Positions 1-13,273 of a stretch of DNA of 36,854 nt are shown one piece after another (position 1 is the first letter of the stretch; every line of letters begins with the position of its first letter). The stretch is taken from assembly GCA_017395635.1 (NCBI GenBank), contig JAFQOE010000017.1, positions 1 to 36,854 on the forward strand. The letters are read 5' to 3'. The notes under the pieces were generated by a model. That model made no database searches. It had not been told where the DNA came from and was given only the letters and a program-made list of their open reading frames with translations. Source of the DNA: Lachnospiraceae bacterium. Lineage in GTDB: Bacteria; Bacillota; Clostridia; Lachnospirales; Lachnospiraceae. Position numbers and translations under genes: made by a program.

Positions 1-164
1 AAGAAGGGGTATTACCACCTGATGAGCCAATGGCTTCTTAGGTTATTTACATTACTTATCTAACTTCAAAAAGTTGCCTATTTTTAGACAGCTTGCTGAA
101 GTGCGCCCTTTTATGGCTTTCCTCTACTTTCTTTCACACTACTTCTCCTCCTCTTATATATCAT

Positions 165-1523
165 TTATTGGTATTGTTCCATGTACGGACAATCTTCAAA
201 TGAATTACCACCAGACTGTAAGAATTCAATTAAATCCTGACTAATTTGATATTCACTTAATACATAACATTGTAAAAACATTGATCTTGCTTTATTCAGA
301 GATGAAATATCAAAATTACTAATATCAAGATTATTCAAGGAATGACAGGCAAAAAACATATAACTCATATCCGTTACATTACGCGTATCAAAACCTGATA
401 CATCTACATAGTCTAAACTTGTACACCAGAGAAATAATCCATCCATATCTGTGACATGGGTAGTATCCAATTCTGACAAGTCCACATCTACCAAGTTCTT
501 ACAATCAATAAACATATATTTCATAGATGTGATTCCCTTTACAGAAATAGATGCCGATGTAATTAAATCTGCATATTTATCCGAACACCATGGCGGTACA
601 TTGTAGTATTCCCATTGATTACTATAATCCTTGGCTTTATAATCACCTTCACCCCACACCTCTAAGTGTCCATTGATATCTAACGACCACATCAAATCAC
701 CACTTTGACAAGGTTCTACAATAAACTCATATACTTCTGTTTCTAATTTACTTGTATCTACAGGAAGTTTGCAATTTTGATACATAGTATCATCATACAC
801 ATAATAATTATAATCAAATCCACATACATCCTCTAAATTTTCACAATCCGAAAACATGTATGATGCCATCTGTACCATGCTCATATCAAATTTACTCATA
901 TCTATTTTTTTCAGATTAGTACATCCACCAAACATAAGTGACATATCTAATACTTTACTTGTATCAAAAGATTTCAAGTCTAGCTCTTGTAAAGTTTCAC
1001 AATAACAAAACATTCCACTCATATCTACAACATTGCTAGTATTGATATTACTTAAATCAATAGATTTAAGACTAATACATCCCGCAAACATACTCATCAT
1101 ATTAGTAACATCACTGGTGTCCAGTTCAGTCAAATCAATTTCTTGCATATTCTCGCAACAATTAAACATACTACTTGTTGTTGTTATACCCGATACGGAT
1201 ACTTTTACTATTTTAATATCATCCGCATATTGTAACCATCCAATATTTTCTAAATCATAATCACCCGTTCCCCATATTTTCAAAAAACCATTACTATCGA
1301 GTGACCATTCTAGCTCACCACATTTCTCATTCTCAACAATATAAGTAACTTCTTCTGCTAATTGGGCATCTTGCGTTGTTACTTCTGTATTTTGCGTGGT
1401 TGCCTCTAGATTCTCACTATTTTCATTATTATTTTGAACATCTGCACTTGTTGTCTTTTCATTCTCTGTATTACATCCTGTCAAAAACAATACCAATAGC
1501 ATCAATACTACTATTCTTTTCAT
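165..1523 (-). CDS. BspA-like/DUF285 repeat lipoprotein with duplicated halves
   Basis: A 452-residue secreted lipoprotein. A basic N-terminus and hydrophobic stretch end in the lipobox LTGC, so Cys17 should be lipidated and anchor the protein on the outer face of the membrane. A Thr/Glu/Asn-rich spacer (about 20-58) follows. Two homologous halves (about 58-250 and 265-450) each open with a WSLD-x-NG-x-L-x-x-WG-x-GDY module and continue into DUF285-type repeats of the form MSxMFxxCxxLxxLDLSxFDTSxVTDM, which fold as leucine-rich-like solenoids. Such repeats are usually adhesive or surface-exposed; the ligand is unknown. It is transcribed separately from the kinase operon: a terminator lies upstream at 1646-1676, and its own promoter carries direct repeats shared with the promoter at 11.1 kb. 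The start is supported by a strong AGGAGG a few bases upstream. Confidence 0.85.
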   Translation of the reverse strand: MKRIVVLMLLVLFLTGCNTENEKTTSADVQNNNENSENLEATTQNTEVTTQDAQLAEEVTYIVENEKCGELEWSLDSNGFLKIWGTGDYDLENIGWLQYADDIKIVKVSVSGITTTSSMFNCCENMQEIDLTELDTSDVTNMMSMFAGCISLKSIDLSNINTSNVVDMSGMFCYCETLQELDLKSFDTSKVLDMSLMFGGCTNLKKIDMSKFDMSMVQMASYMFSDCENLEDVCGFDYNYYVYDDTMYQNCKLPVDTSKLETEVYEFIVEPCQSGDLMWSLDINGHLEVWGEGDYKAKDYSNQWEYYNVPPWCSDKYADLITSASISVKGITSMKYMFIDCKNLVDVDLSELDTTHVTDMDGLFLWCTSLDYVDVSGFDTRNVTDMSYMFFACHSLNNLDISNFDISSLNKARSMFLQCYVLSEYQISQDLIEFLQSGGNSFEDCPYMEQYQ

Positions 1524-1563: not shown

Positions 1564-1628
1564 ATTTTCCTACAAACTTATTCCCATTTCAACAAAACAG
1601 CACCAATAGACAATATACGACACCAATA
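1564..1628 (-). promoter_or_regulatory. Promoter with 20-bp-period direct repeats (candidate LytTR site)
   Basis: Read on the minus strand, a TTGAAA -35 box (1587-1592) is followed after 17 bp by GAAAAT (1564-1569). Two copies of TATTGGTG (1601-1608 and 1621-1628, plus strand CACCAATA) lie just upstream, starting 20 bp apart, with the proximal copy 8 bp from the -35 box. The same layout is found at 11118-11158 with one base changed in each copy (TATTCGTG). Tandem direct repeats beside the -35 box are the usual architecture of LytTR activator sites, although the repeat is not a clear match to the published LytTR consensus. Confidence 0.65.
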
Positions 1629-1645
1629 CTTGGCTCAATGTATAC

Positions 1646-1676
1646 AAAAAAATAGCCACGCTAACACATGACTATT
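1646..1676 (-). terminator. Intrinsic terminator of the LytTR gene
   Basis: On the minus strand AATAGTCA (1669-1676) pairs with TGGCTATT (1651-1658), with one G-U pair, and is followed by a run of seven T. The hairpin overlaps the stop codon of the LytTR gene and separates it from the lipoprotein gene downstream. Confidence 0.75.
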
Positions 1677-2221
1677 TCATCCTTATTATTCTCTTTTTCC
1701 TCTTTTCCCTTCATATAATCTGAAAATTGCTTCCGCACATCCTCACTACGATACTTACTAAGGGGGATTGTTCTTCCGTCCTTCAATATAACAGAATGTT
1801 CATCTATACTGTGAACGTATTGGCAATTTACCAGATAACTGCGATGTACCTTGATAAAATCTCCAATACTCAGAATCTGCTCTACTCTACTAAAAGACAT
1901 ACGTACTAAAAGCTCTTTCCTTTCAAAACATATATGCACATTCTTCAAATCCGCCTCTGCATAGTAGACATCATTCACATTACAGGTTCTTACCTTCTTA
2001 CCCCACTCAAACATAACCTCATTGGCATAAGCTCCTGTAATTAAATCCACTGCATTCTCAGTCATACATACCGAATCATATCGCGACAACTGTTTAATCA
2101 TTAATTCTTGATTCGTATAAGTATCAATCTCTACCTTCTCATCAAATGTTTGAAAATATTTCTGAAGTTGTTTCTTTTGCTTACTAACCTCATCCATTTT
2201 TCCGTAAACTGCAATCTTCAT
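1661..2221 (-). CDS. LytTR-family DNA-binding regulator with short N-terminal domain
   Basis: A 186-residue transcription regulator. Residues about 73-170 form a LytTR DNA-binding domain with the hallmark FIKVHRSYLVN segment and a C-terminal IPLSKYR strand. The first 65-70 residues look like a shortened, unrecognisable receiver: there is no acidic pair, phospho-acceptor Asp or conserved Lys, so ordinary histidine-kinase phosphorylation is unlikely. The C-terminus is rich in Lys and Glu. The gene lies 112 bp downstream of the Ser/Thr kinase gene, on the same strand, and ends in its own terminator. Its 5' leader contains a hairpin abutting the ribosome binding site and a pair of direct repeats. 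It probably regulates the neighbouring surface-protein genes together with the REC-LytTR-FHA protein; this is inferred from the shared repeats, not shown. Confidence 0.85.
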   Translation of the reverse strand: MKIAVYGKMDEVSKQKKQLQKYFQTFDEKVEIDTYTNQELMIKQLSRYDSVCMTENAVDLITGAYANEVMFEWGKKVRTCNVNDVYYAEADLKNVHICFERKELLVRMSFSRVEQILSIGDFIKVHRSYLVNCQYVHSIDEHSVILKDGRTIPLSKYRSEDVRKQFSDYMKGKEEKENNKDEIVMC

Positions 2222-2230
2222 CTGATGTAA

Positions 2231-2316
2231 TCCTCCACAAATCTACTCTATAATTTCATGATATTCAGATTTGTAGAAAAATGGACAAAATGTAAAATTT
2301 AGCAAAGGAAATGTAA
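2231..2316 (-). promoter_or_regulatory. Leader of LytTR gene: direct repeats and RBS-proximal hairpin
   Basis: On the minus strand TTACATTT occurs twice (2309-2316 and 2288-2295) with a 21-bp period, which fits binding of two LytTR domains side by side. Further downstream ACAAATCT (2267-2274) and AGATTTGT (2237-2244) form a perfect 8-bp stem. The 3' arm of this stem directly touches the GGAGG ribosome binding site at 2232-2236, so folding could limit translation. I found no convincing -35/-10 pair, so read-through from the kinase gene is equally possible. Confidence 0.4.
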
Positions 2317-2333
2317 CGTTTGAATATATGACA

Positions 2334-3905
2334 CTACTCTAATGTCTTCCACTGAACACTAGAATCTTTCGCTTCATCATTCCGATTTTTTTTACTCTGT
2401 GCTTGTTTACCGGCAGAAAATGTTACTTTGGCTCCTTTGCTCACAACGATAGAAATTCCTGTTCCCCTTCTAACCTGTTTTCCTCCTTCTATATTCTGGT
2501 ATGAAACCGCACCTCTTACCACTTCATTATTATATTCATAGGATAATTCTACATCTTCTTCATGGTAACCGGCTGCCAACAACATTTGGAGTGCCTCAGA
2601 TTCTTCCTTACCTACAACCTGGGGCACTTGCATCCAGATACCGTGAAATGTCTGCTCAGCCATTATAAGTGTTTCTTCAACCATCTGAGAAACAGAATCA
2701 TTCAAATTATCTAACACAACACTTCCCTGATATATATTACAAATAGCATTGGTATTCTGCATTATTCTATTCCAATATCCTAATCCACAAACAATTAGCA
2801 TAATGCAGATAAGTAATGAAATACCAATCCTGAATTTCCATCTATGGTCTTTCTTAACACACGCATTTCCCTTTTTCTTCTTCTGTTTCACACTAAGTCT
2901 TCCCATCACATCTTGCAAATATAACGTTTTAGATGTATGTTCCTGACCATCAGTAGGTTCATTTACAAGAGAATATGCATCATCTGAATCAGATAACAAT
3001 CCTTCTAATGCCATTCTCATTTCTTTTGGTGTCTGATAACGTTCCTTGGGTATAAAATGACACGCTTTTTTTACAACAGCAGACAAAGCATCATCAGCAT
3101 TACATGGGTTAGGAAATTCTTCACCTGATAAACGCTTTTGCAAAGCCTTCTCTTTATCCTGTATGTGAATTTTCTCAGGATAAGCCGGCATAAACGGAGC
3201 TCGATTATTGTTCAACAGACGATATAACACCAAACCGAGCGAATAAATGTCAACTCTTGCATCATACTTCTCTCCCCGAAACATCTCCGGTGCCATATAT
3301 AATTTCGTTCCCTTTTGTGAAACTGCTAATTCACTTTTCTCTACCACCTTAGAAATTCCGAAGTCACCCAACTTATATTTACCTGTGCTCGACACAAATA
3401 TATTCTCTAGCTTAATATCTCGATGTACCACATTTTTTTGCTGACACACCTCCAACCCTTTACAAATGTCTACACCAATTCGAACAATCTGTTCTCTCTC
3501 TAGAAAACTGTCTTTATCCGTAATATATGAAACCAACGGTTTTAGAAGCTCCATGCGAATATAGATAATAAAGCGACGACCATTTTCTAATTCCTCAACA
3601 TAATGATCTTCAAAGGAAACAATATGGCTATCTCCTTTCATTTGCTCCATTACATCACATTCACGAATAATGTCTTCCACCAGACTTCTGTAATAAAAGA
3701 TTGTATTCTCCTCCGTCATTCCTTCTGTTGCAAGGAGAAAATGATCATTCGAGTCATCCGGAATTGTAATCACCTTGGCTGCTGCTTTATAGACATGTCC
3801 AAACTCTTCTCGTTCAATCTCATACACAGTTCCAAAGCTTCCTGAACCAATCACTCTATTCACTTTCCAGTTATGAAATATTGTATCATTTGTTTGTAAC
3901 TGCAT
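2334..3905 (-). CDS. Membrane Ser/Thr protein kinase with one PASTA domain (PrkC/Stk-like)
   Basis: A 523-residue Hanks-type kinase. The cytosolic catalytic domain (about 12-305) has the glycine loop GSGSFGTVYE (20-29), catalytic Lys44, HRDIKLEN (161-168, Asp163), DFG (181-183) and APE (205-207), so it should be active on Ser/Thr. A Lys-rich juxtamembrane stretch precedes one transmembrane helix (about 358-377). The outer part holds a single PASTA-like domain (about 426-490), whereas PrkC-type kinases usually carry three or more; PASTA domains bind cell-wall muropeptides. The gene follows the EssC/YukD chimera by 10 bp, with its ribosome binding site touching that gene's stop codon. Three FHA domains (phospho-Thr readers) are encoded just upstream, so these are the likely partners or substrates. 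Confidence 0.93.
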   Translation of the reverse strand: MQLQTNDTIFHNWKVNRVIGSGSFGTVYEIEREEFGHVYKAAAKVITIPDDSNDHFLLATEGMTEENTIFYYRSLVEDIIRECDVMEQMKGDSHIVSFEDHYVEELENGRRFIIYIRMELLKPLVSYITDKDSFLEREQIVRIGVDICKGLEVCQQKNVVHRDIKLENIFVSSTGKYKLGDFGISKVVEKSELAVSQKGTKLYMAPEMFRGEKYDARVDIYSLGLVLYRLLNNNRAPFMPAYPEKIHIQDKEKALQKRLSGEEFPNPCNADDALSAVVKKACHFIPKERYQTPKEMRMALEGLLSDSDDAYSLVNEPTDGQEHTSKTLYLQDVMGRLSVKQKKKKGNACVKKDHRWKFRIGISLLICIMLIVCGLGYWNRIMQNTNAICNIYQGSVVLDNLNDSVSQMVEETLIMAEQTFHGIWMQVPQVVGKEESEALQMLLAAGYHEEDVELSYEYNNEVVRGAVSYQNIEGGKQVRRGTGISIVVSKGAKVTFSAGKQAQSKKNRNDEAKDSSVQWKTLE

Positions 3906-3915
3906 CGTTTTTTCC

Positions 3916-5559
3916 TTATATCAACATTAATCTTGTTCCATTCAATATACCGGATTCTTCTGGCGTAAGCTCAGCATCCAAGACAATCCCAACTTCTCGC
4001 TCGCATAGAACAGCACTATCTCCTAATGGCATATATCCTGATTCCTTTTGTGCTAATTGCTTTTTGATTGATGATAACAACTCACCAATTCTCTCGTTAC
4101 GAGATACTGTTATGTCATAAGTTCCTTCAAATGCCGGAACATAGACCTCGACCTTATATATCTCCTCATTGATTCCACCATCCTCAAGATATGTATTTGC
4201 TAATTCCAAACATAAAATATCTATGTTTTCACAACACATATCCGGAATAAATGTATGACACACTCTTTTTGAATGCGTTTGTAAAGAAGCTTTATATGTG
4301 GTACACATATTTCCAGTCTCATTTTCTAGATTTATCACACAATCCCATAAAAAAACATCATCTATAGTAGTATCATAGAAGGATATGCGCTTAACGTTTT
4401 TACTACTAGACATCTCACATTCAGTCCAGATTTGTTCTAACTGCCGATTCCATCCTAACACAATATAAAACGGAGAATTCGTGACATTCTTTTTATTCTG
4501 TCGTTGCAACTGGTTTACAAGCTGCTTCATATCCGATGAATTTTTAATGAATAAACTTTGTCCTATACTTGCACCAACAAAATGCGGCAACCATCTAACA
4601 GTAGACCATGATTCTCCTATTCTATCATCAAGGAAAGCAATAACTTTGACATCTTTATAAGAATAACCGGTTATGATTCGAAGCAAAATTCCCTTTGCAA
4701 ACGCCTCCAGATTCGTCCTAGAACCCTTTACGCAAACACAAGAATTTTCTGTCAAGTCAATTATTGTATTTTTCCCTATTCTTATATTTAAATAATGTGG
4801 ATGCTCTCTTGTAAAACTCCACAACATATTTTTTTCCTTTTCAGTTATATCTACGCAATCTTGTAAGGCTTCATTCCCGGTTAGAACATTAACATCTGGC
4901 TTATAATACTCTACTATTGTTGATGCATCCTTTATATTGCGATTTCTCGGCTTATGGCGAATCGGAACAAAACATTGTGCATTCAATGTAACCATCCCTT
5001 TGGGATTATTAATTGCAAGAAAACCCTTCCCCATTATAATACGAATGCCCATAATATAGATAATATCCCCAGGCTCAACTGCCAAACAGCCTTTTACCCT
5101 TTGGTTATTGACGTATATTCCATTGGTACTGTCTTCATCCGACACAATCCATTTATCATCTTTTTTGCACAGACGAGCATGTACCAAAGATACCGCTATG
5201 CTATCAATGCATATATCGTTGCTCTTTGCTCTTCCAATTAATATATTATCCTTAGATACAATACGAACTCTCTTATATTGAATATCCGGTTCTGCCATAA
5301 CATGCGAAATAGTATCTTCACCGAAAATTTGTACCGTATACAGATGGAATGGGGTAAACATCACTTTATCACAATACTTATTATCATCGTCTAAAAACCA
5401 CATGGCAGATGCCGACTTAGCAAACCAATTTCCGCAACGTCCTTCAATCATGATACCCTTATCATCTGTTTTTTCATTTTTTATCCAAAACTTCCCTTTC
5501 TTCTTAGAGGGTAAATATAAATTCGTAATTCTTTCTTGTTGCAATAGCGTAACAATCAT
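3916..5559 (-). CDS. EssC N-terminal-like FHA protein fused to YukD/EsaB ubiquitin-like domain
   Basis: A 547-residue protein. Residues 1-95 resemble the first FHA-like domain of EssC/YukB, the type VIIb secretion ATPase. Residues 98-185 are a canonical FHA domain (GR at 109-110, S124/H127, STNG at 144-147) that continues into GDIIYIMG and FLAINNP, as in EssC. EssC would next have two membrane helices; none is visible here. Residues about 225-400 resemble the EssC segment just after the membrane helices (LNIRIG, then VRWLPHF). The FtsK/SpoIIIE ATPase domains are missing: no Walker A motif is seen. The last ~80 residues instead resemble YukD/EsaB, a ubiquitin-like type VII component (VEVYVPAFEGTYDITV through NGTRLMLI). 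It is probably a soluble phospho-Thr-reading scaffold. It starts 5 bp after the small FHA gene. Confidence 0.75.
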   Translation of the reverse strand: MIVTLLQQERITNLYLPSKKKGKFWIKNEKTDDKGIMIEGRCGNWFAKSASAMWFLDDDNKYCDKVMFTPFHLYTVQIFGEDTISHVMAEPDIQYKRVRIVSKDNILIGRAKSNDICIDSIAVSLVHARLCKKDDKWIVSDEDSTNGIYVNNQRVKGCLAVEPGDIIYIMGIRIIMGKGFLAINNPKGMVTLNAQCFVPIRHKPRNRNIKDASTIVEYYKPDVNVLTGNEALQDCVDITEKEKNMLWSFTREHPHYLNIRIGKNTIIDLTENSCVCVKGSRTNLEAFAKGILLRIITGYSYKDVKVIAFLDDRIGESWSTVRWLPHFVGASIGQSLFIKNSSDMKQLVNQLQRQNKKNVTNSPFYIVLGWNRQLEQIWTECEMSSSKNVKRISFYDTTIDDVFLWDCVINLENETGNMCTTYKASLQTHSKRVCHTFIPDMCCENIDILCLELANTYLEDGGINEEIYKVEVYVPAFEGTYDITVSRNERIGELLSSIKKQLAQKESGYMPLGDSAVLCEREVGIVLDAELTPEESGILNGTRLMLI

Positions 5560-5564
5560 GCTAA

Positions 5565-5876
5565 TTACCTCAATTTAATTTTCGTTCCTGCTTTCCCTAT
5601 ATATAAAACTGTATCAACTACACATTTTGTTTTTACCATTTTCTCTAATACATGTCCTGTTCCTGTTGTCACTCCACACTCCGAATAATCAGTCACATAA
5701 TAATCACCTTGTTCATCTAGTTCAATAACACAGTGTTTTCTACTGATGGTCATATCTCGAAACACCAGATTAGAAAAGCGTGGCTCTCTTCCCACAACGA
5801 TTTCCTCTCCTTGTCGAATCACAATTTCAGAATCTTTTAATTCTCCTTCTATACAAACAATTCTTCTTTCTTGCAT
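5565..5876 (-). CDS. Small single-domain FHA protein
   Basis: About 103 residues, almost entirely one FHA domain. It has the GRE/GR strand (VVGREPRFSN) and the SRKHC phosphopeptide-contact motif. The usual S/T-x-N-G motif reads SECG here, so the conserved Asn is replaced by Cys and phosphopeptide affinity may be altered. I place the start at the internal ATG at 5876 because GAGGTG lies 8 bases upstream; the longer form from 5900 has no ribosome binding site. It lies in the middle of the kinase/FHA operon, 5 bp ahead of the EssC/YukD chimera, and probably binds a phosphorylated partner made by the kinase gene of the same operon. Confidence 0.85.
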   Translation of the reverse strand: MQERRIVCIEGELKDSEIVIRQGEEIVVGREPRFSNLVFRDMTISRKHCVIELDEQGDYYVTDYSECGVTTGTGHVLEKMVKTKCVVDTVLYIGKAGTKIKLR

Positions 5877-5947
5877 ACATACATCACCTCTTTTTTTCAT
5901 TTAAGACCGTAGCAACCGATTAGATCTCATTCGATTATCAGAAGCCC

Positions 5948-6109
5948 CTACTCTGAACGCTCCATATCTTTTTCTGTCACATCTGTGGAATGTACATCAA
6001 ATGTATCCGTATCCTCTTCAATCCCACTTTTTTCCAAAGCACAATACGGACACTTTTTAAACTTCTCCCCATTATAAAAATGATTTTTATTGCACTTTTG
6101 TAATCGCAT
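5948..6109 (-). CDS. Tiny zinc-ribbon protein of the FHA/kinase operon
   Basis: A 53-residue protein beginning MRLQKC. Its N-terminal half is a knuckle-like metal site: Cys, then NHFY, then KKCPYC, giving three Cys and one His as possible Zn ligands. The C-terminal half is an acidic tail rich in Asp, Glu and Thr. A longer form could start at 6130 (its ATG overlaps the stop of the upstream gene as TAATG), but AGGAGG sits 4 bases before the ATG at 6109 and the motif begins right after it, so I prefer the short form. Similar N-terminal ribbons occur beside FHA and kinase genes in Clostridia. Its role is unknown; the Thr-containing tail could be a kinase substrate bound by an FHA domain (inference). 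Confidence 0.7.
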   Translation of the reverse strand: MRLQKCNKNHFYNGEKFKKCPYCALEKSGIEEDTDTFDVHSTDVTEKDMERSE

Positions 6110-6129
6110 ATTTCCTCCTGAAAACTCCA

Positions 6130-7176
6130 TTATCCCAATCGTATAATATTTTCGCTATGTCCCAACCGAATTTCTTCACCTACACTCATACAAATCTTAT
6201 CCTTTGCTTGAATACGTTCTCCATTGGAACGGAATATTCCATTTGTAGAATAATCAATCACCGAATAGTTATCTGTTTCACTATTGTAACGAATTCCACA
6301 ATGCAAGCGACTAATACGCGCTTCGTTTATAACAACATCTGCAGTTGCTCCATTGCGTCCTACCGTTATTTCCTTATCACATTGAATCCATAAAATCGTT
6401 CCAAGTAGTTTCCCCTTAACAAAAACAATTGCTCCACCACGTTTCCTATTCATGGCGAGACTTCGGTAAATTCGAATATTAGTTGAATCGTCTTCTCGAA
6501 TTTCCATATCCTCGTAATATTTCCTACTCACCGGAACAGATATCCCTTGTACAATAATTTCTGTACGCCCATATGAATCCACAAAATTACTGTTTACAAG
6601 ATAGCTTTGATGGCAACGAACAAAACCTCTGCCCTCTACCATCTTCTGAACTTCATCTAATTTTGCATAAAATGATTGTTCTCCAGTCAACATATATGCA
6701 GTTACTCTACGCTTTTCACTTTTAAAATAGATAATCTTATGAATCGGTATATGAAGTTCTTTACTCTTCGTGTTAATGGTCAAGACTTCTGCAATATAAT
6801 TACGCTCTTCCAGATACCTTATAACATCTTTTTTAAGAATCTCTTCCTTTATAGGTTTTACATAATACGCAAATGCCTTATACATATATCCTTCATACAC
6901 ATAATCCTTTGAATCGGACATAAAGATTATATCTACATCAATATTACGCTTGCGAATCCATTCAGCTATCCGGAACCTCTCCTTTTGATTCATATTAATT
7001 TCTACAAATAACAAATCAACCGCAAACTGCTCCTTTTGAATCGAGTCTATTACAGCTTCGCCATTTTCAAAATGACATATCTCTATATCACTGTAAGGAA
7101 ATGTTATCTTAACAAGCAAATCATGCAATCTCTTGACACTATTAATATCCTCGTCACATATCCCAATCTTTAACAT
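6130..7176 (-). CDS. REC-LytTR-FHA fusion regulator with Glu at the phospho-acceptor site
   Basis: A 348-residue three-domain protein. Residues 1-120 form a CheY-like receiver with the acidic cluster (D8, E9, D10), conserved Ser87 and Lys107 (YVKPI), but the phospho-acceptor position is Glu59 (LLFVEINM instead of LLFLDIxM). Residues about 130-225 form a LytTR DNA-binding domain (FVRCHQSYLVN, VPVSRKYYE). Residues about 255-348 form a complete FHA domain (VGRNGATADVVI, SRLHC, YSTNG). Glu at this position often mimics the phosphorylated state, so control may have moved from a histidine kinase to phospho-Thr binding through FHA. The ATG lies 3 bp after the stop of the upstream secreted-protein gene, with GAAGGAAAG inside that gene's end, which suggests coupled translation. 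Confidence 0.9.
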   Translation of the reverse strand: MLKIGICDEDINSVKRLHDLLVKITFPYSDIEICHFENGEAVIDSIQKEQFAVDLLFVEINMNQKERFRIAEWIRKRNIDVDIIFMSDSKDYVYEGYMYKAFAYYVKPIKEEILKKDVIRYLEERNYIAEVLTINTKSKELHIPIHKIIYFKSEKRRVTAYMLTGEQSFYAKLDEVQKMVEGRGFVRCHQSYLVNSNFVDSYGRTEIIVQGISVPVSRKYYEDMEIREDDSTNIRIYRSLAMNRKRGGAIVFVKGKLLGTILWIQCDKEITVGRNGATADVVINEARISRLHCGIRYNSETDNYSVIDYSTNGIFRSNGERIQAKDKICMSVGEEIRLGHSENIIRLG

Positions 7177-7179
7177 ATG

Positions 7180-9069
7180 TTATATCTTTCCTTCAAATAG
7201 CTTTTGATATTTTTTCATCTTCTTTTTTGGTGCATAGATAATTGGATTCTTATCAATCTTTTTAAATGCTTTACTTCCAATCTTCTTGAGTTTTGTAGAT
7301 TGAATCTTAATAACTTGTAATTTTCTACAATTATAGAATGCTGTTTTGCCAATAACAGCAACCTTCTTTCCAATTACCACATTCTTTAATTGCTTACATC
7401 CATAAAAAGCACTTTCCTGTATGGTCGCTACATTATTGCCAATCGTCACACTGTTAATTTTCTTATTATTCTTAAACGCTTTTTTTCCAATAGCCGTTAC
7501 TTTATAATGTATCCCTTTATATTTTACAGTTGCCGGAATCTTAATATGGGTTGTTTTTTTATTACTTGCACCTATGACTTTTACAGTTTTCTTCTTAACG
7601 CTTGTAATGATAAACCAACATTGTTTACCTTTTATTCTAATACCATTTTTTACAACTGTCTTTTTATTAGACACCGTAGTTTCAGTAGACGTCTCTTCTT
7701 CTTTAGTAGAAACATTCTCTGTTGTTGTTTCCTGTTTTTCAGTACTTGCAGCACCTTCTTGTATGTTTGATCCTTGCTCATCTGCAGTCGCTTCCTGTTC
7801 GGTTGGTTTTTCTCTCACCTGAATTGTGATTTTATCAGAAATAGTATTATCAAATGTGCTCTTACAAATGATTGTAACAATTCCGCTCTTCTTTGCTACT
7901 ACAATTCCGTCTTGATCAATTTCCACAACCGAATTATCGCTGCTCACCCACTCAACCATATTGCTACATGCATTATCCGGAACCAATTCATATTCTAGCA
8001 TTTGCTTGTCATTAACATACATGGTCTTATCATAACCAGAATCAATGGCAATTCCTGTAAGTCCAACATAATCAATTGCATACAATGAAAAATTCTGTGC
8101 ATTTTTATCATTATGCTGATGTATATTCAATTTGGTTCCATCTACGTTAGCCCCACCTACAATATTGAGCGAATAATTGGTAGCATGTTGTGGAATCAGC
8201 CGAACACCAGTATCATTTTGGCATACATACCACTTCTGATATTCGTTGTTTTCTGTCCTGATATCTGCCATGACAACCTCTGTATTTCTGATTGCACCAC
8301 CATCCTTCACTTCTAACACTCTTCCATCATACAAAGATTGGATTATGTAAGTACCATCTTCTTGTTTTTTGAACAACCATCGATAATCAGCCCGTTCCAC
8401 TTCCGTCCATAATACCGGATACCCAATATAATTTCTCAAAGGTTTCCTCGTATTTGTTCTTAATAGTATTGCACAATAATTATCACCCAAATACATTCCG
8501 ACCGGTTCATAGACATATTCATAATCAATCAAACCATATCCGTAGATATATTCATCATTCATATCTCGTGTTACTCTTGCAACCGCATCTGATATATTAC
8601 CCGCTATATAAGTAACCGTACCCTTTTCTTCATCAACACTTTCTACAATTCCACATTGTTCTCGGTCACCCAGAATAATATAGTCTCCTGGTTGTGGTAT
8701 ATATCCTACCGTTTCCCTGAACATCCCTCTTTCAACAAACCACTCACTTGTTACAGTTGTTCGTGCAGGATATACATCCCCCGGCACACCAACCGCGTCC
8801 ATCACCCACCAGAAAAAAGTGGCATTCCACGGTTGTCCATATTTCACCTCCAATGGAATAGCATAGTAGGTATAATTATTGCTGCCTGAATTCGCCGTAA
8901 AATCATATATATTGTCTGTCGAATTCTTTTCATGATAACCAACCTGACTCGCTGCAAGCTTTACGGCTTCTTCACGTAGATTCTCTGCATATACAACGGA
9001 CAAATCATTCAATTGCATTAGAACTGTACACAGAACAATACCTATAATACTAGCCAACACTCTTTTCAT
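7180..9069 (-). CDS. Secreted pseudo-CHAP / ricin-lectin / Ig-like / LRR_5 protein (paralogue 1)
   Basis: A 629-residue exported protein. A signal peptide (cleavage near VYA-EN, about residue 28) precedes a CHAP-like amidase fold (about 32-180; GYHEK, YGQPW, PQPGDY, CGIVESV, IAGN). Active relatives read PWCAxFVSWCA and HVGIVE. Here the Cys position is Asn82 and the His position Gln138, so hydrolase activity is doubtful. Next come a ricin-type beta-trefoil lectin (about 190-335; QSLYDGRVLEV, NIHQHN), a BIG2-type Ig-like domain (about 345-425; VEWVSSDNSVV), a Thr/Glu-rich linker (about 425-475) and LRR_5/BspA-like repeats with a very Lys-rich C-terminus. It probably binds cell wall or glycans. 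It lies downstream of its paralogue and directly upstream of the REC-LytTR-FHA gene. Confidence 0.8.
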   Translation of the reverse strand: MKRVLASIIGIVLCTVLMQLNDLSVVYAENLREEAVKLAASQVGYHEKNSTDNIYDFTANSGSNNYTYYAIPLEVKYGQPWNATFFWWVMDAVGVPGDVYPARTTVTSEWFVERGMFRETVGYIPQPGDYIILGDREQCGIVESVDEEKGTVTYIAGNISDAVARVTRDMNDEYIYGYGLIDYEYVYEPVGMYLGDNYCAILLRTNTRKPLRNYIGYPVLWTEVERADYRWLFKKQEDGTYIIQSLYDGRVLEVKDGGAIRNTEVVMADIRTENNEYQKWYVCQNDTGVRLIPQHATNYSLNIVGGANVDGTKLNIHQHNDKNAQNFSLYAIDYVGLTGIAIDSGYDKTMYVNDKQMLEYELVPDNACSNMVEWVSSDNSVVEIDQDGIVVAKKSGIVTIICKSTFDNTISDKITIQVREKPTEQEATADEQGSNIQEGAASTEKQETTTENVSTKEEETSTETTVSNKKTVVKNGIRIKGKQCWFIITSVKKKTVKVIGASNKKTTHIKIPATVKYKGIHYKVTAIGKKAFKNNKKINSVTIGNNVATIQESAFYGCKQLKNVVIGKKVAVIGKTAFYNCRKLQVIKIQSTKLKKIGSKAFKKIDKNPIIYAPKKKMKKYQKLFEGKI

Positions 9070-9128
9070 AAAAAATCTCTTTCCTCATAAGTAATGACAA
9101 ACATCAACAAGATTCCAATTATCTAATA

Positions 9129-11036
9129 TTAGATTTTATCTTGAAACAATTTTTGATATTTCTTTTTCACTTTTTTAGGAGTATAAATTATCGCTTTCTT
9201 GTGAATTTTTTTGAATGCTTTTTTTCCTACTTTTTTTAATTTAGTAGTTCTAATTTTAATTGTTTTTAATTTACTACAATCGTAAAAAGCATTCTTCCCG
9301 ATAGAAGTTACGTTTTTACCTATTATAACCGTTCTCAATTTCTTACAACCACGAAATGCATTATCCTCTATCGTAGTCACATTATTACCGATTGTTACAC
9401 TCTTAATCTTTTTATTATTCTTAAATGCATTCTTCCCAATAGAAGTTACTTTATATGTTTTCCCTTCGTATTTGACAGTTGCCGGAATCTTGATTGTGGT
9501 TGCCTTCTTGTCACTAACGCCTGTTACTTTAACCGTCTTTTTCTTCACATTTGTAACAACGAAACGACATTTTTTGCTCGAAATTACAGTTCCTTTTTTG
9601 ACAACCTTTATCTCTTCAGATTCTGTACTGTCATATGATTCTTCCTTTTCTTCCGTTGTACTATCCTGCTGTTCTGTAGTCTCTTCTTGCTTCTGCGTTG
9701 AATCTCCCTTTTCTTCTGTAGTTGAATCATTTTCTGTGTCTTTTGAGTCTTCTGTATTGTCTGTGTCATCTTCTGTTGAAGACTTCTTCACCTCAATCGT
9801 AATCTCATCAAATACACTACTGTCATATGTACTCTTACAAGTTATGGTAACTGTACCTTCCTTTTTCGCTGTTACAATTCCACTTTCATCTACTGTAGCC
9901 ACAGAATCATCACTGCTTACCCATGAAACCATATTAGCAGACGCGTCCTCAGGTGACAGTCTATACCCCAAAATCTGAGTTTCACCTACATCAATCTTCT
10001 CCTTATAGCTTAATTTGATATTAATTTCATCCAATTGAACATAATCAACAGGAGAAAATGTAGTCATTTGCGACATCCCTTCATGATGTTGCCATATCTG
10101 CATTGTTGTTCCATCATTTTCTCCATAAATATCTAAACAGAAATTGGTAGCATTTTTCGGAATCAAACGATGACCCACACCAAAACTCATAATGTACCAT
10201 TTCTGGTGGTCATTATTCTCTGTCTGAATCTCCCCCAATGTAACTACTGAAGCTCGGGTTGTTCCTGCATCTTTCACCTCCAACACTTTGCCATCGTACA
10301 AAGATTGAATCATGTAAGTTCCATCTGTCTGTTTCTTAAATAACCATTTATAATCTGCACGATTAAACTCAGACCATAAAACTGGCTCTCCCTGATAATT
10401 TCTATAGTATTTTCCTACCGATGTTTTAAATAACATTGCGCAATAATTATCATTAAAATCCAAACTAGTCGGCTGATATACATAATCATAATCAATTACG
10501 CCATATCCCTTTATATATTCATCATCTAACGACACTGTGAATCTTGTTACTGCATTGCTATCACCACGGTTACCTGCAATAACAGTAACCTCTGTTTCTG
10601 TCACAGATTCTACAATGCCGCAATTAGCTACATTGCCTAATACTGCATAATCTCCAGGTTGTGGTGTATAGGTCCCTCGGTCATAATAAGCATTTCTTTC
10701 ACGAAACCAATCAGTGGTGGCACTTACATAATTGGGAAATGCTTCTCTAGGTACTCCTGCCTGAGCCATCACCCACCAGAAAAATGTTGCACCCCAAGGC
10801 TGTCCATATGCAACACATAAATCCACAGCATATTTCGTATAATTCTTATCACCTGAATTAGCTGTATGATCATACAAATCATCCATCGTTTCCTTTTCAT
10901 GGTATCCTACTTCAGCAGCTGCAATTCTGACTGCCTCTTCTCGTAATCCCTCTGCCCGTACTTGTGACATGTCATTCCATTCCAATGTAATTAAAATCGC
11001 AAATGCACTCATCAAAGTAATCCATAACTTTTTCAT
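9129..11036 (-). CDS. Secreted pseudo-CHAP / ricin-lectin / Ig-like / LRR_5 protein (paralogue 2)
   Basis: A 635-residue exported protein with the same domain order as the gene downstream: signal peptide (cleavage near VRA-EG), CHAP-like fold (about 32-180), ricin-type lectin (about 190-335), BIG2 domain (about 345-420), Ser/Thr/Glu-rich linker and basic LRR_5 repeats. The catalytic positions are again lost, this time to Gly82 (YGQPWGAT) and Asn138 (NVANCGIVE). Losing both residues in two diverged copies argues for a binding role under selection. The start at 11036 is chosen because AAAGGGAG lies about 11 bases upstream and the signal peptide begins there; a longer reading from a TTG at 11093 adds a non-hydrophobic tail overlapping the promoter region. 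It is the first gene of the operon and carries the repeat-containing promoter. Confidence 0.8.
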   Translation of the reverse strand: MKKLWITLMSAFAILITLEWNDMSQVRAEGLREEAVRIAAAEVGYHEKETMDDLYDHTANSGDKNYTKYAVDLCVAYGQPWGATFFWWVMAQAGVPREAFPNYVSATTDWFRERNAYYDRGTYTPQPGDYAVLGNVANCGIVESVTETEVTVIAGNRGDSNAVTRFTVSLDDEYIKGYGVIDYDYVYQPTSLDFNDNYCAMLFKTSVGKYYRNYQGEPVLWSEFNRADYKWLFKKQTDGTYMIQSLYDGKVLEVKDAGTTRASVVTLGEIQTENNDHQKWYIMSFGVGHRLIPKNATNFCLDIYGENDGTTMQIWQHHEGMSQMTTFSPVDYVQLDEINIKLSYKEKIDVGETQILGYRLSPEDASANMVSWVSSDDSVATVDESGIVTAKKEGTVTITCKSTYDSSVFDEITIEVKKSSTEDDTDNTEDSKDTENDSTTEEKGDSTQKQEETTEQQDSTTEEKEESYDSTESEEIKVVKKGTVISSKKCRFVVTNVKKKTVKVTGVSDKKATTIKIPATVKYEGKTYKVTSIGKNAFKNNKKIKSVTIGNNVTTIEDNAFRGCKKLRTVIIGKNVTSIGKNAFYDCSKLKTIKIRTTKLKKVGKKAFKKIHKKAIIYTPKKVKKKYQKLFQDKI

Positions 11037-11094
11037 CTTCTGTTTATCTCCCTTTCTCGCAACCGACCATGAATGGTCCATATTTATCATCAAA

Positions 11095-11158
11095 ATTATA
11101 CTATTATTCTATTTCATTTTCAACAAACAGCACGAATAGGAAATATATAGCACGAATA
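11095..11158 (-). promoter_or_regulatory. Operon promoter with 20-bp-period direct repeats (candidate LytTR site)
   Basis: On the minus strand TTGAAA (11118-11123) and TATAAT (11095-11100) are separated by 17 bp, a near-consensus sigma-A promoter. TATTCGTG occurs at 11131-11138 and 11151-11158, a 20-bp period, with the proximal copy 7 bp upstream of the -35 box. The lipoprotein promoter at 1564-1628 has the same arrangement, and the bases between the repeat and the -35 box (CTGTTTG and CTGTTTTG) are also shared. Two promoters about 9.5 kb apart with this architecture point to one activator. Confidence 0.75.
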
Positions 11159-11177
11159 ACATTGTCCATATAAGCAA

Positions 11178-11205
11178 GTAAAGAGTAGCCTCTATAGCTA
11201 CTCTT
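11178..11205 (-). terminator. Terminator-like hairpin after the Cof-type phosphatase gene
   Basis: AAGAGTAGC (11181-11189) and GCTACTCTT (11197-11205) form a perfect 9-bp stem with a 7-base loop. On the minus strand it is followed by a short TTTACTT tract. It lies 16 bp after the end of the pantothenate/CoA operon and upstream of the surface-protein operon promoter. Confidence 0.5.
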
Positions 11206-11220
11206 AATAAGAAAACAACA

Positions 11221-12030
11221 TTACCCAAAATACGTTTCCACAATCTCCAACAACCCATCCTCGTCATTGGTTCTCGCTGTCACCACATCCGCAACTGCTT
11301 TTACCTCATCTTTTGCATTTGCCATAGCCACACCAACACCTGCATATTCTATCATGGACATATCGTTAAATCCGTCACCACAAGCGACCGTATCTTCCTT
11401 ATCGACACCAATAATGTCAAAGAGACGAGCCAAAGAAGCTGCTTTATCTACACCTAGCGGCATTGCTTCAACAAAAAAGCTTTCCGAACGATATACACTT
11501 AACACACCGTCATATTGTTGAGCCAGCTCTTTTTCGTAATCCGGTGCAACGTCTTCTTTTGCCGTAAACAAGCATTTGTTAATATCAAAATCAATATAAT
11601 TGACAAAATCATCTACTCTTTCTAATTCCATCAGATTAAGACGTGCTTCAAACTCCATATACTCATCAATTCTTGTACCTGTTAATACTTTATTGTCTTT
11701 GTATGTAACAAGTCCCATATCATGTGTAATCGCATACTCATAAAGAGGTGCAATACATTCTTTCGGAAAACACTGCTGATAGACCACTTCTTTTGTCTTC
11801 ACATTCATGATTCTGGCACCATTAAAGCAAAGCACATAACCACCGAATTTTTCTAATTGTAACAAGTCAGATACCTTCTTCATACCATGTGTTGGTCTAC
11901 CTGATGCCAGCACAATAATATGACCTTGTTCCTGTAATTTGATTAATGCTTCAAGTGTCTTTGGTGTAATATCCTTCTGACTGTTCGTAAGTGTTCCGTC
12001 TATATCCAGTATTAATACTTTCTTCTTCAT
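11221..12030 (-). CDS. Cof-type HAD-superfamily phosphatase
   Basis: A 269-residue cytosolic hydrolase of the Cof/YidA group (HAD type IIB). The N-terminal LDIDGTLT holds the nucleophile and general-acid Asp pair (D9, D11). The C-terminal GDGFNDMSMI is motif IV, and the intervening segment is the cap domain that sets substrate choice. Relatives dephosphorylate sugar phosphates, FMN or other small phosphates; the substrate cannot be read from the sequence. It is the last gene of the pan/coaBC operon, 46 bp after coaBC. A role in removing a CoA-pathway phosphate by-product is possible, but only by context. Confidence 0.9.
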   Translation of the reverse strand: MKKKVLILDIDGTLTNSQKDITPKTLEALIKLQEQGHIIVLASGRPTHGMKKVSDLLQLEKFGGYVLCFNGARIMNVKTKEVVYQQCFPKECIAPLYEYAITHDMGLVTYKDNKVLTGTRIDEYMEFEARLNLMELERVDDFVNYIDFDINKCLFTAKEDVAPDYEKELAQQYDGVLSVYRSESFFVEAMPLGVDKAASLARLFDIIGVDKEDTVACGDGFNDMSMIEYAGVGVAMANAKDEVKAVADVVTARTNDEDGLLEIVETYFG

Positions 12031-12076
12031 GTAAATACTCCTATCAAATATTTTCGTCGTCTAATCAGATAACAAA

Positions 12077-13273
12077 TTATGAATGCATCATTCCTATCAT
12101 CTCATCCAAAATTGCTTTTGCAACATCGTCCTTGGATAACAATGGCAATTCCTTAACCTCATCCTTCTTAATTAAGGTTACTACATTGGTATCTGTACCA
12201 AATCCTGCACCTTCTACTTTCAGATTATTTGCAACAATCATATCTGCATTCTTACCTGTAAGTTTTTTAGTTGCATTTTCTAGCAAATCCTTAGTCTCCA
12301 TGGCAAAACCACAGATAACCTGCTTATCCTTCTTATGCTCGCCTAAATATTTCAGGATATCCGTTGTGCGAACCAGCGAAATACTCATATCATCATCCGA
12401 CTTCTTAATTTTATCTGATGCAACCGTTGCCGGTGTATAGTCCGCAACCGCTGCTGCCTTGATAATAAAATCTGCATCCTCGCTTTGTTCTTTCACAGCC
12501 TCAAACATATCTTTTGCACTTACCACAGAAATTATCTTCACAAACGGTGGTTTCGGTGTAGACGTTTCACCGGTCACCAACACCACTTCTGCGCCTCTTT
12601 CCATTGCACATTTCGCAATGGCATAACCCATTTTGCCGGTTGAATGATTGGAAATGTAGCGCACGGGGTCAAGAGCTTCTCTTGTAGGTCCTGCCGTCAC
12701 CAATACTTTCTTGCCAACCATATCTTTTTCGTAATGAAGTTCTTTCATAATATAAGATAACAACACGTCTTCTGATGGTAATTTACCTGCTCCTGTATCA
12801 CCACACGCAAGATAACCTGTTGCCGGAGTAATAATTTCATATCCATAGCTTTCTAATTTTTTCAAATTATCCTGAACAATTGGATTCTCAAACATATTGG
12901 TATTCATCGCCGGTGCAATCAACTTTGGTGCTTTACATGCCATTATCGTTGTAGTTAACATATCATCTGCAATCCCACCTGCAATCTTTCCAATTACATT
13001 AGCAGACGCCGGAGCCACCATGAAAATGTCTGCTCTTTGCGCCAATGCCACATGCTCTACATTAAATTGAAAGTTGCGATCAAACGTATCCACCAAACAC
13101 TTATTGCTTGTCAAAGTTTCAAATGTAATCGGATTAATAAAATTCGTAGCATTCTGCGTCATAATCACATGTACATCCGCATGCAACTTTACAAGCATAC
13201 TTGCCAAATTCGCTATCTTATAGGCTGCAATCGAGCCTGTCACCCCTAATACAACTGTTTTTCCCTGTAACAT
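12077..13273 (-). CDS. coaBC: Bifunctional phosphopantothenoylcysteine decarboxylase / phosphopantothenate-cysteine ligase
   Basis: A 398-residue two-domain enzyme (Dfp). The N-terminal CoaC half (about 1-180) is a flavoprotein decarboxylase with GVTGSIAAYK, the active-site His in NVEHVALA, the PAMNxxM motif (APAMNTNMF) and the Cys-containing flap ACGDTGAGKLP. The C-terminal CoaB half (about 188-398) starts KVLVTAGPTRE and contains ISNHSTGKMGYAIA, joining cysteine to 4'-phosphopantothenate with nucleotide activation. It performs the second and third steps of CoA synthesis in the cytosol. It follows panGBCD and an unknown membrane protein on the same strand, so pantothenate synthesis and its first use are probably co-transcribed. 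Its length is normal for the family. Confidence 0.95.
   Translation of the reverse strand: MLQGKTVVLGVTGSIAAYKIANLASMLVKLHADVHVIMTQNATNFINPITFETLTSNKCLVDTFDRNFQFNVEHVALAQRADIFMVAPASANVIGKIAGGIADDMLTTTIMACKAPKLIAPAMNTNMFENPIVQDNLKKLESYGYEIITPATGYLACGDTGAGKLPSEDVLLSYIMKELHYEKDMVGKKVLVTAGPTREALDPVRYISNHSTGKMGYAIAKCAMERGAEVVLVTGETSTPKPPFVKIISVVSAKDMFEAVKEQSEDADFIIKAAAVADYTPATVASDKIKKSDDDMSISLVRTTDILKYLGEHKKDKQVICGFAMETKDLLENATKKLTGKNADMIVANNLKVEGAGFGTDTNVVTLIKKDEVKELPLLSKDDVAKAILDEMIGMMHS

Follow-up and report, generated by a model that had tools for sequence, protein, structure and literature searches.

The contig JAFQOE010000017.1, whose 36,854 bases are analysed here in full as "the window", belongs to a metagenome-assembled genome (MAG) of a Lachnospiraceae bacterium (3.34 Mb in 197 contigs; 91.7% complete, 3.3% contaminated). 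Its minus strand carries a locus that combines a PASTA Ser/Thr kinase, FHA proteins and LytTR regulators with a fusion of part of EssC, the motor protein of type VII secretion systems (T7SSs), to YukD. By sequence comparison, the locus shares descent with motor-bearing T7SS loci, the motor and the membrane part of EssC have been lost, the remainder has been fused to YukD, the same form is present in two sister lineages, and a promoter element recurs with it. Judged this way, the locus is T7SS-derived, which is not to say that it is a T7SS. The reading preferred here, with a probability of roughly 0.55, is that, once the motor was lost, the control module of a T7SS was exapted to act on surface proteins as a kinase-FHA-LytTR circuit of its own.

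An initial annotation of the window had listed the same genes, and all of them are present on the minus strand, with Pfam matches for each except the zinc-ribbon mini-protein. That annotation saw in them, however, a self-contained system. They are better described as the control part of a T7SS cluster whose motor is kept in two relatives.

An EssC-YukD fusion without a motor

The argument begins with a protein of 547 amino acids (aa), here called the chimera. Over its first ~200 residues it shares 40% identity with the N-termini of long frames in two genomes of the same genus, G299 (1519 aa; 5.0e-44) and G322 (1524 aa; 1.1e-41). These long proteins are EssC, with TIGR03928 scores of 1091 and 1083 bits (cut-off 778). 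Residues 266-459 of the chimera match the DUF of the same two proteins (30% and 27%), and residues 462-547 match the stand-alone YukD genes of the two T7SS loci (42% and 46%). The ubiquitin-like T7SS component YukD/EsaB is, in other words, present in the window as a fused domain, at a Pfam E-value (0.013) under the cut-off. The alignment places in the chimera neither the EssC segment that runs from FHA2 to the DUF, which holds the membrane part, nor anything that lies C-terminal of the DUF in EssC.

The same losses, at the same domain borders, are seen in a second chimera, in the genome G310. A hydropathy scan found no membrane segment in either chimera. The same scan missed the membrane segment of the G299 EssC, so the absence of the segment is taken from the alignment.

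Structure comparisons agree. A profile search of the PDB, made with the two chimeras only, returned chain 9qks_G, named YukB, as its best match (6.5e-9). An AlphaFold model of the chimera, built from a 5-row alignment, reached a mean predicted local distance difference test (pLDDT) score of 53, and its top Foldseek matches were 9qks_H and 9qks_G; at that confidence, these count only as agreement with the sequence results. Both chimeras keep the phosphothreonine-binding signature of FHA2 (G109, R110, S124, H127, N146, G147). A contig scan with the chimera alone as query found no relative. One EssC-type frame, in G943 (L168 1492-2763, contig C33; ~423-427 aa), was considered as a second motorless case and set aside: it keeps the membrane part, ends inside the DUF and has no in-frame YukD, and is probably an interrupted ordinary EssC.

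The initial annotation had noted the lack of a WXG100 protein and of a motor ATPase, and this holds beyond the locus. Among the eight window proteins scanned with Pfam there is no motor ATPase, WXG100 or PP2C; nor is there a match to EssA, EssB or EsaA, families with which no genome search was made. In the whole window genome, none of 22 candidates scored matched WXG100 (PF06013). Two EssC types, used as queries against that genome, found only the chimera and one 897-aa frame matched over a single ATPase stretch, probably an FtsK/SpoIIIE protein. A T7SS is recognized by an EssC/EccC motor with FtsK/SpoIIIE ATPase domains and a WXG100 gene; neither was found in this 91.7% complete genome.

The fusion might, of course, serve as an adaptor or brake for another T7SS of the same cell, competing for kinase, FHA or YukD contacts. 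G310 does have a separate T7SS, with a 1672-aa EssC, elsewhere in its genome, and the fusion retains the FHA region that, in Bacillus subtilis, copurifies as part of EssC (YukB) with a pseudokinase partner (PMC9600267; here and below, papers are cited for the parts consulted). This is quite unlikely: the window genome, at 91.7% completeness, yielded no WXG100 and no second EssC to the one WXG100 family and two EssC types searched.

Relatives, rates of change and the chromosomal site

The initial annotation proposed co-occurrence in related genomes as the check on its gene set, and the genes do travel together. In G310 the core has the order found in the window, and the HAD, coaBC and panD genes flank both. 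Identities to the window proteins are 55% for the regulator, 62% for the small FHA protein, 53% for the zinc ribbon, 54% for the kinase, and 33% each for the chimera and the LytTR protein. The two lectin/LRR proteins of the window are matched by a single one (47%) in G310, where the kinase and LytTR genes are separated by a DUF3990 gene and further genes follow. Directly after the LytTR gene (G310:C48) comes a short flagellin-N-terminal protein (L069 5188-5859; Flagellin_N 2e-42); the DUF3990 gene (L069 6996-7472) is on the opposite strand.

The clusters of G299 and G322 hold the regulatory subset: regulator (50% and 52%), kinase (59% and 58%), zinc ribbon, FHA, LytTR and PP2C. Both also have full EssC and a separate YukD, and each gives four WXG100 matches, of which one falls under the Pfam cut-off. 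The initial annotation would have given up its view had the genome encoded a complete T7SS to which these genes belong. This applies by half: relatives have a T7SS that holds them, and the window's own genome shows none. Candidate substrates lie between the WXG100 genes (L070 2835-4175, of no clear family, and L071 4738-6036, with a weak match to a C39-like peptidase at 1.4e-4, just under cut-off).

Three trees, built from hand-picked rows (5, 9 and 7) with support given as paired values, group the window with G310: kinase 100/99, regulator 93/98, and EssC N-terminus 85/86, the last with long branches. Given this grouping and the common architecture, the simplest reading is that motor loss and fusion happened once.

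Rates of change differ by protein. Terminal branches of the kinase are 0.32/0.25 (window/G310) versus 0.19/0.30 in the T7SS pair G299 and G322; those of the EssC N-terminus are 2.02/1.26 in the chimeras versus 0.23/0.39. Pairwise identity tells a similar story. Between window and G310 it is 73% for the kinase domain (70% between G299 and G322), 51% for YukD (67%), 32% for FHA1 (62%), 49% for FHA2 (72%) and 31% for the DUF (75%), with no such gap for the regulator (55 versus 60) or the small FHA protein (58 versus 44). These figures compare one pair of each kind and do no more than suggest a change of constraint that affected what derives from EssC and spared the kinase.

Such numbers might also be those of a decaying T7SS remnant, in which the motor was deleted and the leftover genes, with an accidental EssC-YukD fusion among them, drift without function. 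The fast divergence of FHA1 and the DUF suits this, as do the loss of the receiver aspartate from the window regulator, the narrow distribution of the chimera, and a scan of the locus that showed neither a WXG100 nor a PP2C gene. Plain decay nevertheless fits less well, because the form is shared by sisters, the module frames are open in both genomes, the kinase changes at about the rate seen in the T7SS pair, and the FHA2 signature is kept. The promoter element in both genomes and the matching losses at domain borders also speak against it. Decay is regarded here as unlikely.

The chimera was searched for in samples of the genus (26 genomes), family (299), order (392) and class (391); the samples overlap and their thresholds differ. 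Of the 26 genus genomes, 10 encode an EssC that has motor domains (E <= 1e-30), counting G310 through its 1672-aa EssC type; the eleventh genome in this tally is the window genome, matched in its chimera only.

Within the genus, coaBC was found in 24 of 26 genomes, and the neighbourhoods of the 22 other than the window and G310 were examined. HAD lies near coaBC on one contig in 15 of the 24 (window and G310 counted). In G301 the gene directly after HAD, on the other strand, is presumably a PHP-type phosphatase, and G311 has the same site and no module. At this site G321 carries a kinase/PP2C/FHA/LytTR cluster that lacks EssC and has a regulator of 41% identity. In G322 the T7SS cluster sits next to a gene that we take to be an acylphosphatase, and HAD, at a contig end, while coaBC opens another contig; a join of the two is plausible. 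The G299 T7SS is on a contig other than that of its coaBC site. At the other coaBC sites, several stop at contig breaks and the rest carry other genes. By this survey, the module is accessory, at a variable site. Transfer was also considered through base composition, and dropped: the island G+C fraction of 0.353 versus 0.371 is uninformative.

Two loci outside the module deserve description. The G321 cluster (L140/L141; G321:C6:15001-40000) has several kinase-like proteins, two PP2C phosphatases, FHA and zinc-ribbon proteins, two LytTR proteins and the 41% REC-LytTR-FHA protein. The window genome itself has a second REC-LytTR-FHA gene (L073, G000:C163:44500-64000, at 9386-12739; 34-36%). After it come a zinc-ribbon protein weakly similar to FHA and a different Ser/Thr kinase, with adjoining LRR secreted proteins; G301 and G302 have the like.

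From such loci it could be argued that the LytTR-FHA-kinase set is a common Lachnospiraceae cassette for envelope stress, never tied to secretion and merely placed beside T7SS genes. The paralogue in the window genome, G301 and G302, with its distinct kinase, and the EssC-free cluster of G321 at the same site, are what such an argument would use. It is very unlikely to be correct: the chimera derives from EssC and YukD, T7SS-cluster kinases are the nearest to the kinase of the module, and in the regulator tree three of four paralogues fall apart from the module regulators. The fourth, that of G305, has a long branch and joins the side of the module regulators.

Module proteins, promoter element and proposed circuit

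Gene order, from 11093 to 165, is two lectin/LRR proteins, regulator, zinc ribbon, small FHA, chimera, kinase, LytTR and BspA lipoprotein (Table 1). The short or overlapping gaps first described for the operon are 3-59 bp in the core, and ahead of the last two genes they widen to 112 and 137 bp. The range first given, 1564-11158, encloses the core genes but leaves out the BspA lipoprotein gene. Between this gene and the contig end are 164 bases (window 1-164), and several relatives break at the same site. Rfam gave no match at gathering score anywhere in the window.

Table 1. Features of the T7SS-derived locus, in window coordinates
Feature	Position	Strand	Evidence
BspA/DUF285 (PARCEL-repeat) surface lipoprotein, putative output gene	165..1523	-	Pfam DUF285 4.4e-45; NCBIfam TIGR02167 6.6e-42
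Predicted LytTR box TTGGTG-N14-TTGGTG upstream of BspA gene; -35 TTGAAA at 1592, -10-like GAAAAT at 1569	1564..1626	-	Rank 1 of 73658 positions, leave-species-out scan
LytTR DNA-binding protein	1661..2221	-	Pfam LytTR 1.2e-18; 33% to G310 gene
Ser/Thr kinase with a single hydrophobic segment (355-373) and a single PASTA domain	2334..3905	-	Pkinase 4.3e-42, PASTA 9.9e-10; hydropathy scan; motifs
EssC(FHA1-FHA2-DUF)-YukD fusion without membrane or ATPase domains	3916..5559	-	FHA 7.6e-16; alignment and profile matches
Small FHA protein	5565..5900	-	Pfam FHA 4.7e-9; aligned with three relatives
53-aa zinc-ribbon-like mini-protein, C..H/CPYC	5948..6109	-	No Pfam match
REC-LytTR-FHA regulator, receiver Asp59 to Glu	6130..7176	-	FHA 5.4e-12; Pfam and alignment
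Secreted degenerate-CHAP-like/ricin-lectin/Big2/LRR_5 protein	7180..9069	-	Pfam and alignment
Secreted degenerate-CHAP-like/ricin-lectin/Big2/LRR_5 protein	9129..11093	-	Pfam and alignment; start probably near 11036
Predicted operon promoter: LytTR box TTCGTG-N14-TTCGTG, -35 TTGAAA at 11123, spacer 17, -10 TATAAT at 11100	11095..11156	-	Rank 2 of 73658, leave-species-out scan

The kinase has what is expected of a PASTA Ser/Thr kinase: intact Hanks motifs (glycine loop, Lys, HRD, DFG, APE), one membrane pass and a PASTA repeat. It scores 165.9 against the NCBIfam PknB_PASTA cut-off of 450 bits, and is no PknB/Stk1 equivalog under that model. Its kinase domain is 73, 64 and 60% identical to those of G310, G322 and G299. 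Sensing of wall fragments, as first proposed, is not supported as stated; its basis is the one PASTA repeat. Two motifs were considered as phospho-bait and dropped as too thin: TL...VG in the kinase linker (3 of 5 kinases) and TETV(I/V)GK in the zinc-ribbon tail (G322 and G299, not the window).

The FHA signature (Gly-Arg, Ser, His, Asn-Gly) is complete in the regulator's FHA domain. In the small FHA protein the Asn-Gly is missing in all four species aligned. The locus has two LytTR proteins (Pfam LytTR 1.2e-18 and 1.9e-17). In the regulator the LytTR domain is accompanied by a receiver that has Glu at the phospho-acceptor position, Asp59, by which a response regulator would be recognized; G310, G299 and G322 keep Asp, and Glu occurs in one (G305) of nine other regulators aligned. 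With this substitution, the FHA domain of the regulator is the likelier input, rather than the receiver.

The two secreted proteins at the operon head both have ricin-lectin, Big2 and LRR_5 domains; for the one at 9129-11093, an internal Met near 11036 is more likely to be the true start. CHAP is matched in one of the two, at 2.8e-5, just under cut-off. A homologue in G040 keeps WCATFVWW and a downstream His, while the window proteins show WNA/WGA and no His; the catalytic Cys and His are gone in both of them and in G310. The earlier "pseudo-amidase" label is thus apt, and without these residues the proteins are more likely binders than enzymes.

The promoter element is a direct repeat, TTSGTK-N14-TTSGTK, 7-8 bases before a sigma-A-like -35 box (TTGAA) that is ~17 bases before a -10-like box. 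In the window it precedes the operon and the BspA gene; in G310 it stands ahead of the LytTR gene, and in G299 and G322 ahead of the regulator gene. A search with the regulator had given nine loci, three of which (L095-L097) were used beyond scanning. When up to one mismatch was allowed, the combined pattern matched nine times in 805,996 bases of the loci analysed: the five sites, three duplicates (L095-L097 duplicate three contigs within these bases) and one other. Shuffled sequences gave 0.1 exact and 0.5 one-mismatch matches. With leave-species-out matrices, the window sites rank 1 and 2 of 73,658 (28.7 and 19.4 bits; next 10.3), and those of G310, G299 and G322 each rank 1, of 39,758, 39,280 and 38,888 positions. 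The five-site matrix gave 54 matches above 9 bits in 759,277 bases versus 42 per shuffle. Its best untrained matches score 21.5, 18.9, 17.1 and 16.0, and shuffles reach 20.1, so that only the first beats chance on score alone. That match lies upstream of the G321 regulator, without a -35 match. Of the others, two are in G310, upstream of a transglutaminase-like/MBOAT gene pair (18.9) and of an LRR protein gene (16.0), and one (17.1) is upstream of a kinase-like gene in G305.

Scans with an AgrA-type consensus found none in four window intergenic stretches, and one match each in G310 and G322. LytTR sites of Streptococcus mutans consist of 9-bp repeats with a spacing of mostly 12 bp (at times 11 or 13), and lie 4-11 bp ahead of the -35 (PMC6193735). 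The repeats here start 20 bp apart, which is the less common 11-bp spacing if they are 9 bp long. The element is predicted to be a LytTR-type direct-repeat site upstream of the -35, its layout fitting described sites.

The circuit inferred here (the targets of the kinase, FHA binding, direction of regulation, ligand, and which LytTR protein binds the box) would run as follows. The membrane PASTA kinase would phosphorylate threonines on itself, on partner proteins, or both. The soluble EssC-YukD fusion, through FHA2, would be a phospho-dependent scaffold, which in the ancestor would have coupled the kinase to the motor. The FHA domain of the REC-LytTR-FHA regulator would serve to recruit or release it, and the regulator would activate the direct-repeat promoters of its own operon, with two wall- or sugar-binding surface proteins at its head, and of the BspA lipoprotein gene. 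The initial annotation had drawn a similar circuit. The kinase motifs, the signatures of FHA2 and the regulator, and LytTR-type promoters at the operon and BspA gene agree with it; the small FHA protein without Asn-Gly and the receiver Glu do not.

Several points weigh against exaptation as such a circuit. The MAG is incomplete, and its contig here terminates at base 1. The full-length chimera occurs in 2 of 26 genus genomes (window and G310); among the matches listed for the 299 family genomes, and in the samples of 392 genomes from the order and 391 from the class, the window genome alone has it. Judged by coaBC (95%; HAD 98%), the nearest relative is G301, and it has no module at this site. 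The drift of the DUF and FHA1 (31-32% identity) is also compatible with slow decay, and the window regulator has lost its receiver Asp. As for the scaffold, FHA domains of T7SSb EssC bind their partner without phosphorylation (PMC11217815), and a YukD-YukB contact was absent in a two-hybrid test (PMC9600267). The box was spotted by eye before scoring, and was scored only on the loci already collected.

More generally, it is tentatively suggested that a T7SS control core (kinase, EssC FHA-DUF platform, YukD) can serve in transcriptional signalling when no secretion motor is present. In that case the EssC FHA-DUF platform and YukD would form a signalling scaffold in their own right, and in motor-bearing relatives the same scaffold would couple the state of the motor to LytTR-driven transcription. 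T7SS variants with kinases and FHA proteins are known, and a natural deletion of the motor separates their phospho-signalling from secretion. The module also offers small, probably soluble proteins for study of FHA-kinase-YukD contacts, together with a predicted promoter element. It would be a case of parts of a secretion machine turned into a regulator.

Comparison with described systems

The novelty of this arrangement rests on literature searches. These found no paper that links T7SS, FHA and LytTR, or LytTR with an FHA domain, or T7SS, Lachnospiraceae and WXG100. T7SS, Lachnospiraceae and EssC together gave a macaque gut genome paper only; among the matches listed for pairs of PASTA kinase, LytTR and FHA, one Cronobacter genome paper has LytTR (once) and FHA (five times).

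The initial annotation knew of no described system with this gene set. The variants T7SSc-T7SSj (Garrett et al. 2024, PMC11217815) include kinases, phosphatases and FHA proteins, and phospho-control has been proposed for them. As points of likeness, their clusters have an EssC-type ATPase (FHA-bearing in 5 of 8), a YukD-like TsxB and, often, a kinase in the membrane together with a PPM phosphatase and an FHA protein distinct from the ATPase. By that account, all have the ATPase, and a WXG100 gene could be named in all but T7SSi; the window yielded neither, and joins EssC to YukD in one protein. T7SSi is the only variant for which a LytR-like regulator (TsiN) is named. The consulted parts of this description contain no motorless case and no LytTR-FHA regulator, and the text, to that extent, no mention of PASTA, LytTR or Lachnospir.

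The T7SSb core of B. subtilis, YukB (9qks) with the pseudokinase YukC, resembles the chimera in that 9qks chains are its top structure and profile matches, and in that the YukB FHA region binds a kinase-like partner (PMC9600267). The window differs in that the membrane segment and the ATPases are absent, the pseudokinase is replaced by a kinase that looks active, and the FHA signature is present.

On the regulatory side, the pneumococcal StkP-ComE pair resembles the proposed circuit in that a PASTA kinase phosphorylates a LytTR response regulator (PMC6010298); it is not known to involve an FHA domain or T7SS scaffold. LytTR Regulatory Systems, finally, have direct repeats just upstream of the -35 and autoregulation, as does the layout proposed here, but their regulator is held by a membrane inhibitor protein, where the window has a kinase and FHA proteins (PMC6193735).

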